Below are positions 20,752 through 48,508 of a stretch of 64,000 bases of DNA, in pieces (position 1 is the stretch's first letter; every line of letters starts with the position of its first letter). The position numbers and the translations under genes are program-made. Origin of the DNA: Ruminococcus sp. (GTDB lineage Bacteria > Bacillota > Clostridia > Oscillospirales > Ruminococcaceae); contig JAFUTU010000038.1 in assembly GCA_017484095.1 (NCBI GenBank), positions 1 through 64,000 of the forward strand, written 5' to 3'. The notes under the pieces were generated by a model. The model was not told where the DNA came from and ran no database searches. It saw only the letters and a list, made by a program, of their open reading frames with translations.

Positions 20752-22125
20752 ATGATACATAAGTTTAAGCTTGAAGGATATAATGTATTGCTTGATGTTA
20801 ACAGCGGCGGAGTACACATCGTTGATGATCTTACTTATGATGTGCTTGACAATGTCGAGCCGCCGTTTGCTACGGAATGTCCCGAGAACGTGGTAAAGAA
20901 GCTGTCGAAGACGTATCCCGAAAAGGATATTTGCGACTGCTATGACGAGATAGTTTCGTTATATGAGGATAAAATACTGTTCAGTGAGGACGATTATGAG
21001 AAGTTTGCTCTGGCGTCTGTGGCTTCTCCTGTAAAGGCTTTGTGTCTGCTGGTGTCTCAGGACTGCAATATGAGGTGCAAGTACTGCTTTGCAGCGCAGG
21101 GAGACTACGGCACGGGCAGAAAGCTTATGAGCTTTGAAACGGGAAAGAGAGCTCTCGATTTTTTGATCGAGCAGTCGGGAAGCAGGTATTTTCTTGAGGT
21201 AGATTTCTTCGGCGGAGAGCCTATGCTCAACTACGACGTTGTAAAGCAGATAGTTGAATACGGACGTTCCCGCGAGGAAGAAGCAAACAAGAAGTTCCGC
21301 TTTACGATGACGACAAACGGTCTTATACTTACCGATGAGCAGATAGATTACCTCAACAAAGAGATGAACAACATAGTTCTCTCTATAGACGGCAGAAAAG
21401 AAGTAAACGACAGAATGAGGGTACTTGTCGGCGGACAGGGCACCTACGATAAGATACTGCCGAACTTTAAACGCCTGACCGAGCGCAGAGATAAGGACAA
21501 GGACTGGTACGTGCGCGGTACATACACCAAGTATAATCTGGATTTCTCGAACGATATAATGCATTTTCATGACCTCGGGTTCGAGCAGATATCTGTCGAG
21601 CCTGTTATAGCGGATCCGAAGGAGCCTTACGCTATAACTGAAGCGGACCTGCCGAAGATATTCAAGGAGTATGAGGTGTTGTCTCAGAAGATCAGAAAAA
21701 TCAGAGAAGAGGGCAAGTTCATAAACTTCTTCCACTTTATGATAGATCTGGATCAGGGTCCCTGCGCTATCAAGAGACTGCGCGGCTGCGGAAGCGGCAA
21801 CGAGTATGTTGCTATATCTCCCGAGGGAGACATTTATCCATGCCACCAGTTTGTGGGTATTGAGGATATGAAGATGGGCAACATCAATGAGGGTACGTTC
21901 GATCTGGAAAAGAAGGACGAATTCGCTCATGCACACGTATATACTAAGCCCGAGTGTAAAAAATGCTGGGCGAAGTTCTATTGCAGCGGCGGCTGCAACG
22001 CTAATAACTATATCTACAACGGCGATATCCATGCAGCTCATAAGCTTTCGTGCCAGATACAGAAAAAAAGGCTTGAATGCGCTATCCTGATGAAAGCGCT
22101 TGAGCTGATGGATACAGCAGAATAA
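20752..22125 (+). CDS. scfB: SCIFF peptide maturase, radical SAM/SPASM thioether-forming enzyme
   Basis: The product has 457 residues. An N-terminal RiPP-recognition-like region (1-90) binds the leader. The radical SAM cluster motif is CNMRCKYC (Cys 105, 109, 112). SPASM cysteines follow: CAIKRLRGCGSG, DIYPCHQ, CKKCWAKFYCSGGC and a final Cys in KLSCQIQ. This set binds two auxiliary 4Fe-4S clusters. The enzyme installs thioether crosslinks in the SCIFF peptide encoded just upstream. Its ribosome site, GGGGAGG, comes from a dispersed repeat. Length and motifs match CteB/Tte1186-type enzymes. Confidence 0.96.
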   Translation: MIHKFKLEGYNVLLDVNSGGVHIVDDLTYDVLDNVEPPFATECPENVVKKLSKTYPEKDICDCYDEIVSLYEDKILFSEDDYEKFALASVASPVKALCLLVSQDCNMRCKYCFAAQGDYGTGRKLMSFETGKRALDFLIEQSGSRYFLEVDFFGGEPMLNYDVVKQIVEYGRSREEEANKKFRFTMTTNGLILTDEQIDYLNKEMNNIVLSIDGRKEVNDRMRVLVGGQGTYDKILPNFKRLTERRDKDKDWYVRGTYTKYNLDFSNDIMHFHDLGFEQISVEPVIADPKEPYAITEADLPKIFKEYEVLSQKIRKIREEGKFINFFHFMIDLDQGPCAIKRLRGCGSGNEYVAISPEGDIYPCHQFVGIEDMKMGNINEGTFDLEKKDEFAHAHVYTKPECKKCWAKFYCSGGCNANNYIYNGDIHAAHKLSCQIQKKRLECAILMKALELMDTAE

Positions 22126-22475: not shown

Positions 22476-25346
22476 TTATGGCAGAAGCCTGTTTATATCT
22501 CTTGGGAACATAGAGGTCTCGCGGATATTGTTCTTGCCGAGAAGCTTCATCAGCAGTCTTTCAAGACCTATACCAAGACCACCGTGAGGCGGCAGGCCAT
22601 ACTTATGCGCTTCAAGATAGCTTGCAAAGTCTGCGGGGTCAAGTCCCTGCGCTTTCAGCTTAGCTACCTGCTCATCATAATCGTGTATTCTCTGTCCTCC
22701 AGAGGTTATCTCCAGTCCTCTGAACAGGAGGTCAAACTTGTATGCTTCTCTTGGGTCCTCTCTGGAGTTCATCGCATAGAACGGAGGCTTTGAGGACGGG
22801 AAGTGTGTAACGAAAATGAAGTCACTGTCATACTTCTCTTTTGCATACTTGCCGAGGTTCACCTCGTCCTCAGGGTCAAGGTCGAACTTCTTGCCGCTTG
22901 TCTCTCCGCCTCTCAGAAGCTTTAATGCATCTGCAAACTTGATAGACGGTATCTCCTTGATAGTCGGCACGTCAGCACCGAGAATAGCGATCTCGTTTTG
23001 GTAGTTTTGCTTGATATACTCAAAAATGCTTCTGAGCATTGCGGTCTCCATAGCCATAACATCGTACATACTGTCGATGTAGCCCATCTCAAAGTCAAGA
23101 CCGATGTACTCGTTAATATGACGTGAGGTAGCGTGCTTTTCAGCTCTGTAAACGGGAGCTATCTCGTAAACTCTGTCAAAGAAGGCAACAGCGGTCTGCT
23201 TGTAGAACTGAGGTGACTGGTTCAGGAAGGCATTCTTTCCGAAGTAATCAAGTGCGAAGATGTTTGCACCGCCCTCAGCTCCCTGGGCAACTATCTTAGG
23301 TGAGTGAATCTCGGTAAAGTTCTGCTCCTGCATGAACTTATGCATTCCGTGAACAAGACCCTCCTGAAGCTTGAAGATCGCTCTCTCGTATGGGTTCCTG
23401 AGGGATACGGCTCTGTTATCGAGGTTTACCTCTATCGTGCAGCCGAGCTTGCCCTGAGATATTTTAAGCGGCAGCTCTGCGGCATTGGTAGATACCAGCT
23501 GGATAGATGAAAGCTCGATCTCAAGACCTGTCTGCTCTCTGTTGTTCTCTTTGACAAGGCCCTTTACCTTAACAAAGTAGCCCTCTCTGAGGCCCTCTAT
23601 GCTGTCGGGGCACTTATCGGCAGAGTAAACCGTCTGGAAGACATATCTGGCAGTTCTTACATTGATAAATGCGATGCTGCCCATATTTCTTATCCTGTGG
23701 ACACAGCCCTCAAATTCGACCTCGCTGCCCATAGCAGCCTTTGCGTCATCAAGGGTGAACTCTTTTATAAGCTTGTCGGTAGAGATCATCACCATATCGC
23801 CGTCAGGCTCGGGAACGAACTTATCGGTCGGCTGATACTTTGTCAGCTTATCGGTGCCAATAACGGTCTCGGTCTGCTCGGTCTCATCAGCTTTGTTCTC
23901 AGCCTTTGATGCTGCAAACTCATCGAGCTTTTTCTCTAATATCTCTTTTATTATCTTAGGTGTAGCTATACCCTTCAGTGCCTTTGTACACTGACCCATG
24001 ATAAAGCCGAAGACCTTCTTTTCGCCGTTTGCATACTGTGCAGCCTGAGCATTGTTCTCAGAGATTATTCGGTCGATCTCGCTGTTTACTTTCTCTTCGT
24101 CAACAGTTATGAGCATACCCTTTTCCTTGGCGATATCCATAGGCTTTCCGCCCTCCTCCGCCATTACACGGAAGACAGCCTTAGCATCGTTTTTGGAAAC
24201 TGTCTCATTATCAGACATTTCAACGAGCTTTGCGATATCCTCAGCAGGGAAGGTGATGTTGTCGATATCAATCTCTCCGAGGTTGACACGCCTCATGAAC
24301 TCACCGAGCATAAATACGCAAACGCTCTTCGGCTTATTGTAGTAAGAGCAGGCTTTATCAAAGAAGTCAGATATCTGCTTTGACTGGATAAGGATATCGG
24401 CATCAACAGCCGAGATACCGTTCTCGATATACCTTGCGCGTCTCTCGGCAGGCATTTCGGGGAGCTTTGCGTGTATCTCTTCGATCTGCTGATCTGTGAG
24501 GTTTACCTGTAAGATATCGGGCTCGGGGAAGTAGCGGTAGTCGTTAGCATTCTCCTTGGTACGCATAGACGTGGTCTTATCACGGTTCGCGTTATAGCGC
24601 CTTGTTTCCTGAACTACCTTTTTGCCTGCTTCAAGCAGGAGAGCCTGTCTTTTCTGCTCATACTTTATAGCTCTGCCGACTGATTTTACGGAGTTTATGT
24701 TCTTGATCTCGGCACGGGTACCGAACTCAGTTGCATCGGGCTTCATCAGCGAGATGTTAACGTCGCATCTGAGTGAGCCCTGCTCCATTTTACAGTCGCA
24801 GACACCTGCATATTTGAGGAGAAGAGCTATCTGCTCAACATAAGCCATAGCCTCCTCTGCGGAAGCGATATCGGGCTCGGATACGATCTCGATAAGCGGT
24901 ATGCCGCAGCGGTTATAGTCAGCCAGAGACACGCCGTTAAAGTCGTCATGCACGAGCTTTCCTGCGTCCTCCTCAAGATGTATGTGGTTTATTCTTATTT
25001 TTTTCTTTTTGCCGCCCACTTCTATCTCAACTGCGCCCTCACCGATTATGGGGTAGTAGAGCTGCGAGATCTGATAAGCCTTCGGCAGGTCGGGATAGAA
25101 ATAGTTCTTACGGTCGAACACCGAGAATTTATTTATCGAGCAGCCGAGCGCAAACCCTGCCTTAACAGCATATTCAACTGCCGTCTGGTTTATAACGGGG
25201 AGAGTGCCGGGCATACCTGTGCACACAGGGCAGCACCTTGTATTCGGTGCGCCGCCGAACTCAGCCGAGCAGCCGCAAAAGATCTTTGTCTTGGTAAGGA
25301 GCTCGGCGTGTATCTCCAGACCAATGACGGTCCTCCATTTTTCCAT
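22476..25346 (-). CDS. gatB-aspS: Fusion of GatB amidotransferase subunit with archaeal-type aspartyl-tRNA synthetase
   Basis: One 956-residue frame. Residues 1-478 are a full GatB: start MEKWRTVIGLEIHAEL, zinc-type cysteines CGC and CCPVC, GSLRCDVNISL, and a C-terminal tail domain. Residues 479-522 form a polar linker. Residues 523-956 are a short, archaeal-type AspRS: OB-fold anticodon domain, motif 2 (YRAEKHATSRHINEY), GGQRIHDYDEQ, and motif 3 (GGLGIGLERLL). The bacterial GAD insertion is absent. His550 sits where discriminating archaeal enzymes have Trp and non-discriminating ones His. The fusion would charge tRNA-Asn with Asp and amidate it on one scaffold. Strong GGAGGAG site. gatA and gatC lie upstream. 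Confidence 0.95.
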   Translation of the reverse strand: MEKWRTVIGLEIHAELLTKTKIFCGCSAEFGGAPNTRCCPVCTGMPGTLPVINQTAVEYAVKAGFALGCSINKFSVFDRKNYFYPDLPKAYQISQLYYPIIGEGAVEIEVGGKKKKIRINHIHLEEDAGKLVHDDFNGVSLADYNRCGIPLIEIVSEPDIASAEEAMAYVEQIALLLKYAGVCDCKMEQGSLRCDVNISLMKPDATEFGTRAEIKNINSVKSVGRAIKYEQKRQALLLEAGKKVVQETRRYNANRDKTTSMRTKENANDYRYFPEPDILQVNLTDQQIEEIHAKLPEMPAERRARYIENGISAVDADILIQSKQISDFFDKACSYYNKPKSVCVFMLGEFMRRVNLGEIDIDNITFPAEDIAKLVEMSDNETVSKNDAKAVFRVMAEEGGKPMDIAKEKGMLITVDEEKVNSEIDRIISENNAQAAQYANGEKKVFGFIMGQCTKALKGIATPKIIKEILEKKLDEFAASKAENKADETEQTETVIGTDKLTKYQPTDKFVPEPDGDMVMISTDKLIKEFTLDDAKAAMGSEVEFEGCVHRIRNMGSIAFINVRTARYVFQTVYSADKCPDSIEGLREGYFVKVKGLVKENNREQTGLEIELSSIQLVSTNAAELPLKISQGKLGCTIEVNLDNRAVSLRNPYERAIFKLQEGLVHGMHKFMQEQNFTEIHSPKIVAQGAEGGANIFALDYFGKNAFLNQSPQFYKQTAVAFFDRVYEIAPVYRAEKHATSRHINEYIGLDFEMGYIDSMYDVMAMETAMLRSIFEYIKQNYQNEIAILGADVPTIKEIPSIKFADALKLLRGGETSGKKFDLDPEDEVNLGKYAKEKYDSDFIFVTHFPSSKPPFYAMNSREDPREAYKFDLLFRGLEITSGGQRIHDYDEQVAKLKAQGLDPADFASYLEAHKYGLPPHGGLGIGLERLLMKLLGKNNIRETSMFPRDINRLLP

Positions 25347-27109: not shown

Positions 27110-27252
27110 AAAAAGCACCATACTTTCCGTATTTTTGGCATCACTGCCATAACTATATTATTATACACTATTTTAAACGCTTTTGCAAGTGTTTTGCGCT
27201 ATGTATATTTTTTTTTACAAATAGAGAGATTGAAAATAATTGTTGTTCTATC

Positions 27253-48371: not shown

Positions 48372-48403
48372 CTGTATTGCGGAGATATCCGTTAATATTA
48401 TTT

Positions 48404-48490
48404 GCAGGGGAACATAAGGCTTACCGCCCGAGTTGAGAAGACATTAGTCTGACCCTTTGAACCTGTCGGTCAATACCGTCGTAGGAAGCA
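48404..48490 (+). promoter_or_regulatory. TPP (thiamine pyrophosphate) riboswitch
   Basis: The conserved blocks are present in order: GCAGGGG, TTGAGA (usual CTGAGA), GACCCTTTGAACCTG, then TCAATACCGTCGTAGGAA (usual GATAATGCCAGCGTAGGGA). It binds TPP and controls the thiamine uptake gene at 48577. The terminator hairpin at 48509 is the expected expression platform. Confidence 0.93.
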
Positions 48491-48508
48491 GATTTAGTGT
48501 GTGCTCAT

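Follow-up and report, generated by a model that had tools for sequence, protein, structure and literature searches.

A GatB–aspartyl-tRNA synthetase fusion in a gatCAB operon

In a 64,000-nt stretch of a Ruminococcus sp. genome (positions 1 to 64,000 of contig JAFUTU010000038.1, assembly GCA_017484095.1; hereafter the window), we analysed gatB::aspS2, a gene that encodes GatB of the GatCAB amidotransferase and an archaeal-type aspartyl-tRNA synthetase (AspRS) as a single protein. It is the third gene of gatC-gatA-gatB::aspS2 (Table 1), its frame runs through 956 codons plus the stop with no interruption, and a GGAGGAG sequence precedes its ATG. A previous reading of this DNA, made from the letters alone (the sequence-only reading), had described a full GatB and a full class II AspRS in one frame, and its coordinates and domain limits were borne out by Pfam and NCBIfam. 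In Pfam, GatB_N and GatB_Yqey are followed by an OB fold and a class II core, and no GAD domain was given for the fusion protein. The NCBIfam GatB models exceed their curated cut-off, with the best stretch at residues 2–476, as do NF003483 ('aspartate--tRNA(Asn) ligase'; residues 531–956) and TIGR00458 (aspS_nondisc; residues 536–956, 388.1 bits against a cut-off of 368.4).

An AlphaFold2 model of the fusion (mean pLDDT 78.2, pTM 0.50), built from an alignment with only three fused rows, has both enzymes mostly folded, and in a structure search with this model the top fold matches of the GatB part were solved GatB chains. Residues 480–526 are disordered and unplaced, and residues 624–649 and 735–746 of the AspRS part also score below 50.

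Table 1. Features of the gatC-gatA-gatB::aspS2 region in window coordinates
Feature	Position	Strand	Remarks
gatB::aspS2, 956-aa GatB–AspRS fusion	22476..25346	-	ATG start, stop included
GatB part, residues 1–478	23913..25346	-	GatB_N (catalytic) 6–289, GatB_Yqey tail 327–474
Linker, residues 479–522	23781..23912	-	acidic overall; AlphaFold2 480–526 very low confidence
Conserved linker motif, window copy KLTKYQPTDKFVP, residues 500–512	23811..23849	-	45-row alignment
Archaeal-type AspRS part, residues 523–956	22479..23780	-	OB anticodon domain 543–617, class II core 639–950
Anticodon-domain stretch HRIRNMG with His550 (non-discriminating-type residue)	23679..23699	-	alignment to solved AspRS
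gatA, GatCAB glutaminase subunit, 486 aa	25360..26820	-	13 nt ahead of gatB::aspS2
gatC, 96 aa	26831..27121	-	10 nt ahead of gatA
Promoter-like site upstream of gatC	27160..27188	-	10/12, consensus match only

The fused frame recurs within one family

A TIGR00458 survey covering 396 genomes of the family gave 76 over the cut-off, 41 with open frames of 749–1002 aa and 35 with frames of 437–506 aa. The 41 genomes (window included) and four more from the window's genus provided 45 fused loci for inspection. GatB and AspRS share one frame in all 45, down to about 65% identity, and 14 genera of the family carry the fusion. The order gatC-gatA-gatB::aspS2 is complete in 38 of these loci; in the remaining seven the contig ends first. 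By open-frame length, no fusion but the window's own was found in a class sample (391 genomes, 37 over the TIGR00458 cut-off) or an order sample (394 genomes, 30 over it). In the samples taken the fusion is confined to some Ruminococcus-like gut bacteria of one family, a spread that the sequence-only reading had missed.

When 61 related genomes were searched at the protein level, the fused frame appeared in 10: G033 of another genus, and nine of the 29 belonging to the window's genus, one of which, G001, has the gene truncated at a contig end. A related-locus scan yielded at least 594 stretches; the 80 best of them included named fused loci from Ruminococcus sp. RGIG8501 (82%) and an uncultured Ruminococcus sp. 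(67%), as well as three loci (L035, L036 and L074) that match along the query, yet whose genes are separate and adjacent. One candidate was dropped: G030 had been read as a single 933-aa frame, but two stops lie between its halves and other searches gave proteins of 487 and 443 aa.

The join might be a product of assembly or sequencing, given that the window's genome is split into 59 contigs and that both named fused loci come from metagenome bins. However, it recurs in 45 loci whose linkers differ and still stay in frame, and these include two genomes of two contigs each (G016 and G164), both of which hold the fused frame. Junctions at once conserved and diverged refute an artefact, to which we assign next to no probability. 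A frameshift or assembly join in the linker, which the sequence-only reading had named as a threat to its claim, was not seen.

The window's genus is mixed. Besides its nine fusion carriers, 10 genomes have an unfused archaeal-type AspRS (38–39% identical) with no GatB row listed, and the other 10 have rows resembling asparaginyl-tRNA synthetase (AsnRS; about 30%), eight of these with an unfused GatB. Several routes to Asn-tRNA seem to exist within this genus.

The fusion supplies the only GatB found in the genome

Among the questions that the sequence-only reading had left to a genome search were the presence of a separate bacterial-type aspS and that of asnS. The first gene was found: PF00152 gave three genes in the genome, which are a bacterial-type aspS, lysS and the fusion. 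For asnS, no gene in the genome exceeded the cut-off. An asparagine synthase gene (asnB) is present, with one 615-aa protein over the cut-off and a 510-aa relative just under it, so that free Asn can be made but, with asnS not found, not charged directly. PF02934, which also covers archaeal GatE, matched one gene in the genome, the fusion. The class Ic family PF00749 likewise matched one gene, gltX_bact; this single class Ic enzyme is a glutamyl-tRNA synthetase (GluRS), and no glutaminyl-tRNA synthetase (GlnRS) was found in the genome.

The tRNA genes agree with this gene content. Among the 30 of 44 tRNA matches that were fetched, the single tRNA-Asn(GUU) gene found and two tRNA-Gln genes have U1–A72, and two tRNA-Asp genes and one tRNA-Glu gene have G1–C72. 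U1–A72 is the identity pair for the amidotransferase, according to the available excerpts of PMC9976931. With neither AsnRS nor GlnRS found, one GatB and U1–A72 tRNAs, transamidation should be the source of Asn-tRNA, and Gln-tRNA should need the same fused GatB, with GluRS acting in trans. This additional service to Gln by the sole GatB found went unremarked in the sequence-only reading. Protein synthesis should thus need the fused protein for both Asn and Gln.

Charging specificity of the AspRS part

A sequence comparison with the PDB placed T. thermophilus AspRS2 (E 3.7e-107) nearest to the AspRS part; this enzyme is also in the transamidosome crystal structure 3kfu. Two positions were compared with solved enzymes, one His or Trp and the other Pro or Lys, which we take to separate non-discriminating (ND) from discriminating AspRS. 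At the first, the residue opposite His550 is His in T. thermophilus AspRS2 (1n9w) and Trp26 in 1b8a, presumably the T. kodakarensis enzyme. This position is His in 41/45 fused and 35/36 separate rows, with Tyr in the rest, and is never Trp in the fused proteins. At the second, Gln605 matches neither the Pro of 1n9w nor the Lys of 1b8a, and ten residue types occur there in the 45 fused rows (Pro in four, Lys in none). The sequence-only reading had described both positions correctly. In the genome's bacterial-type AspRS the residue is Met at a site that is His in 4wj3 (P. aeruginosa), Leu in 1efw and 1eqr, and Lys in the best match, 6wom; we assume this to be the H31 site tied to ND versus discriminating charging, and Met there would suit a discriminating enzyme without proving it.

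With both AspRS genes present and Gln605 being neither Pro nor Lys, the roles could be reversed, such that the AspRS part mainly charges tRNA-Asp and the bacterial-type enzyme makes Asp-tRNA-Asn. We regard this arrangement as improbable. His550 agrees with T. thermophilus AspRS2 and differs from the Trp of 1b8a, the aspS_nondisc model exceeds its cut-off, the AspRS part is physically united with an amidotransferase, and the bacterial-type AspRS has Met where the AspRS of the P. aeruginosa transamidosome has His. The separate bacterial-type AspRS is probably a dedicated tRNA-Asp enzyme.

A conserved motif in a variable linker

In the 45-row alignment, entropy averages 2.84 bits per column in columns 475–500, compared with 0.59 in GatB 1–300 and 0.52 in AspRS 641–956. 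The linker also holds a conserved motif that the sequence-only reading had overlooked, with T502 at 87%, Y504 at 87%, Asn506 at 82%, Tyr510 at 78% and Pro512 at 98% across the 45 rows. Its commonest form in the family, [YF]xNxxx[YF]xP, is strictly present in 35/45 linkers (9/12 in one fused clade and 26/33 in the other). A looser form fits 42/45 linkers. In shuffled linkers the mean is only 0.01 of 45, and as the patterns were derived from these same, related rows, the counts are evidence of constraint and not a probability. In the window copy Pro replaces Asn, so that it fits the looser form only, and the linker of G108 is shorter and motif-free. Our guess is that the motif is a docking latch.

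Origin of the join

Unfused relatives with adjacent, separate genes make a likely origin of the fusion visible. In the 35 unfused aspS2 loci of the family, the next Gat gene upstream is gatB in 22, with about 45–345 nt between alignment ends; one aspS2 lies before gatC, and 12 have no Gat gene in the fetched stretch. Junctions were inspected in six unfused family loci. Five (G030, G223, G136, G226 and G140) are in the same frame, with 63–72 nt between alignment ends and a stop at the GatB end, and G389 is the exception. The fusion likely derived from a gatC-gatA-gatB-aspS2 operon, in which the stop and spacer would have turned into the linker. The sequence-only reading had counted relatives with separate genes at this locus as grounds for doubting the fusion. 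Such relatives do exist, in 22/35 unfused loci and as lineages nested among the fused ones, but they leave the fusion standing and point to where it came from.

On a tree, the fused label requires 2 changes (AspRS alone) or 3 (GatB and AspRS together). Two unfused lineages (G223/G136 and G101) nest inside the fused group, and a single clade of fused rows was rejected (p-AU 0.002; the tree was a quick one and contains long branches). These data fit either a single gain with later splits in two lineages or two to three gains, and of these the motif common to the linkers speaks for the single gain with splits.

The same junctions raise the question of whether the link does anything. If the stop was lost by chance and the link has no effect beyond equal amounts of the two enzymes, the pathway would be the same without benefit from the fusion, and this neutral read-through overlaps with the transamidosome reading given below. 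It would be favoured by the frequent position of aspS2 behind gatB in unfused relatives, by the short same-frame junctions (5/6) and by the nested unfused lineages. In contrast, the fusion has been retained in 14 genera, and the motif is kept in the variable linker, with the caveat on its derivation given above. On balance we find a purely neutral origin rather unlikely, at perhaps one chance in several.

In two unfused operons (L294 and L310, from G187 and G073), the gatA gene flanked by gatC and gatB aligns along only ∼394–416 codons, at 41% identity, and GatB and AspRS retain 63–66% identity.

Gene content of other genomes with the fusion

Adding G001 to the 45 gave 46 fused genomes. A second, unfused GatB is present in 26 and absent from 20, when a second partial GatB match in G001, G422 and G263 is taken as a fragment of the fused gene. 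Completeness reaches 95% or more in six of these 20 (G000, G022, G087, G242, G164 and G360). In two genomes checked (L329 and L330), the second GatB is accompanied by a GatA of its own in both and by a GatC of its own in one. On the AspRS tree, presence of the second GatB changes three times (27 rows, genomes at least 95% complete).

All 46 fused genomes have a single class Ic enzyme (as two partial matches in G422 and G347), and a GluRS plus GlnRS pair was found in 0/46. AsnRS exceeds the cut-off in 2/46 fused versus 21/34 unfused genomes (G332 left out), or 1/14 versus 10/15 when tallied by genus. We do not claim a link between the fusion and AsnRS loss: plain Fisher tests gave 1.4e-8 and 0.0017, but the tree provides only 2 independent pairs (sign test, p 1).

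In five fused genomes (G400, G108, G154, G418 and G107) the sole PF00749 gene lies in a frame of 529–576 aa. Three of these were scanned and are nearest to gltX_bact, at 269–298 bits against a cut-off of 289.95, with two cut by the stretch end. In G418, the neighbour of this gene resembles, by eye, the gene beside gltX in the window's genome; the enzyme of these genomes is perhaps a divergent GluRS in the usual place.

A proposed built-in Asn-transamidosome

We think it likely that the fusion forms a built-in Asn-transamidosome, in which GatB:AspRS is forced to 1:1, and which doubles as the general amidotransferase of the cell. GatB, the kinase/transamidase subunit, would carry a dimeric archaeal-type AspRS on its C-terminal YqeY tail through a flexible linker of ∼45 residues, tying this tail to the AspRS anticodon domain. 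With GatC and GatA, which are encoded just upstream, this would make a covalently assembled Asn-transamidosome. Since AspRS enzymes of this kind form homodimers, the particle is predicted to be (GatCAB-AspRS)2 with a fixed 1:1 ratio of GatB to AspRS. The same complex would amidate Glu-tRNA-Gln made by the separate GluRS, which the flexible linker may allow to dock in trans. The sequence-only reading had also proposed a built-in transamidosome; both steps of tRNA-dependent Asn synthesis do lie in one chain, and the physical complex is the part that we predict.

AspRS is unlikely to be produced separately from the fusion, because a ribosome-binding site (RBS) of at least 5 nt before an in-frame start near the AspRS N-terminal end occurs in 0/45 fused genes versus 8/36 unfused genes. 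A more far-reaching version, in which the covalent transamidosome is obligate at 1:1, unlike 3kfu, the motif acts as a latch that parks or releases AspRS, and in the window's branch, where a second GatCAB was not found, one particle makes all Asn-tRNA and Gln-tRNA by switching between its built-in AspRS and GluRS in trans, is possible, and we put it forward only tentatively.

Several observations weigh against the transamidosome reading. The genome is 99.42% complete, and in its 59 contigs a gene may have been missed. An RBS of 4 nt occurs in 7/45 fused versus 18/36 unfused genes, which makes the start-site test a weak one. Gln605 matches neither reference enzyme, and the bacterial-type AspRS could itself be ND, although Met at its H31 site argues against this without settling it. 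The nested unfused lineages, together with the rejected single clade, imply that the join is dispensable or was gained more than once. Finally, given a second GatB in 26/46 fused genomes, the fusion need not serve Gln everywhere.

Comparison with known systems

The pathway, both enzyme families, a second AspRS alongside GatCAB and a protein model for an AspRS–GatC fusion are already known. One of the systems nearest to the proposed complex is the T. thermophilus Asn-transamidosome (AspRS2, GatCAB and tRNA-Asn; 3kfu), which combines the same families, an archaeal-type ND-AspRS and a bacterial GatCAB. The known Asn-transamidosomes are tRNA-Asn-dependent complexes that shield the aminoacyl-tRNA, and in T. 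thermophilus the proteins are separate and assemble in a tRNA-Asn-dependent manner (available parts of PMC9499178); in the window the parts are fused. Our fusion model matches four AspRS-length chains (A–D) and two GatB-length chains (F and I) of 3kfu, which suggests an AspRS:GatB ratio of 2:1 there, with chain identity taken from the lengths. A 2:1 ratio is impossible for the fusion unless some chains are cut, hence the prediction of (GatCAB-AspRS)2.

Clostridium acetobutylicum, also one of the Clostridia, likewise has GatCAB together with a second AspRS, and the available excerpts of PMC4206432 contain no mention of a fusion. The pathway of this species is reported to be T-box controlled (from a title cited in those excerpts), in contrast to the window locus, where no T-box was found. 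In the window, there were 0 T-box matches at the Rfam gathering threshold, and upstream of gatC there were 0 at E up to 1, a range in which two chance-level matches to non-T-box Rfam families appeared. Twenty related loci also gave no T-box at the gathering threshold.

NCBIfam PRK12820/NF009460 (bifunctional AspRS/GatC) also models an AspRS fused to a Gat protein, but the partner there is GatC and not GatB. Against NF009460 (cut-off 1379 bits), the window protein scores 81.8 bits and the genome's bacterial-type AspRS 562.2 bits. The GatB chains of the T. maritima Gln-transamidosome (3al0) and the P. aeruginosa Asn-transamidosome (4wj3) are close structural matches to the fusion; we take both complexes to consist of separate subunits with GluRS or a bacterial-type AspRS as the synthetase, and not an archaeal-type one. 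No paper on a GatB–AspRS fusion was found among openly licensed PMC texts, a search that left subscription journals mostly outside. One candidate was discarded, as 'GatB fused' in the accessible text of PMC4027206 refers to a mitochondrial targeting signal and not to AspRS.

That Asp-tRNA-Asn is kept from the elongation factor is explained by complex formation, and here the synthetase and the amidotransferase are tied together. The fusion therefore offers a direct test of channelling, through its linker and motif, and its predicted stoichiometry differs from that of the T. thermophilus crystal. By gene content, a single amidotransferase would have to act on two kinds of tRNA, with a fused synthetase as one partner and a free synthetase as the other.

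Neighbouring sequence, plasmid and viral records

The promoter-like site upstream of gatC is one of 8 such sites observed in the region, where 7.1 are expected, i.e. no excess over shuffled sequence. At E 1e-40, none of the plasmid records covered 80% of the query. A GatB relative (40%, residues 4–474) is encoded on a 26-kb contig classed as viral (IMGVR_UViG_2913630200_000002), which is perhaps host sequence. Elsewhere in the window, a TPP riboswitch at 48396–48504 (+) exceeds the Rfam threshold. Beside the operon on the opposite strand, 20752–22125 (+) encodes a 457-aa protein with Cys motifs that by eye are radical-SAM/SPASM-like.

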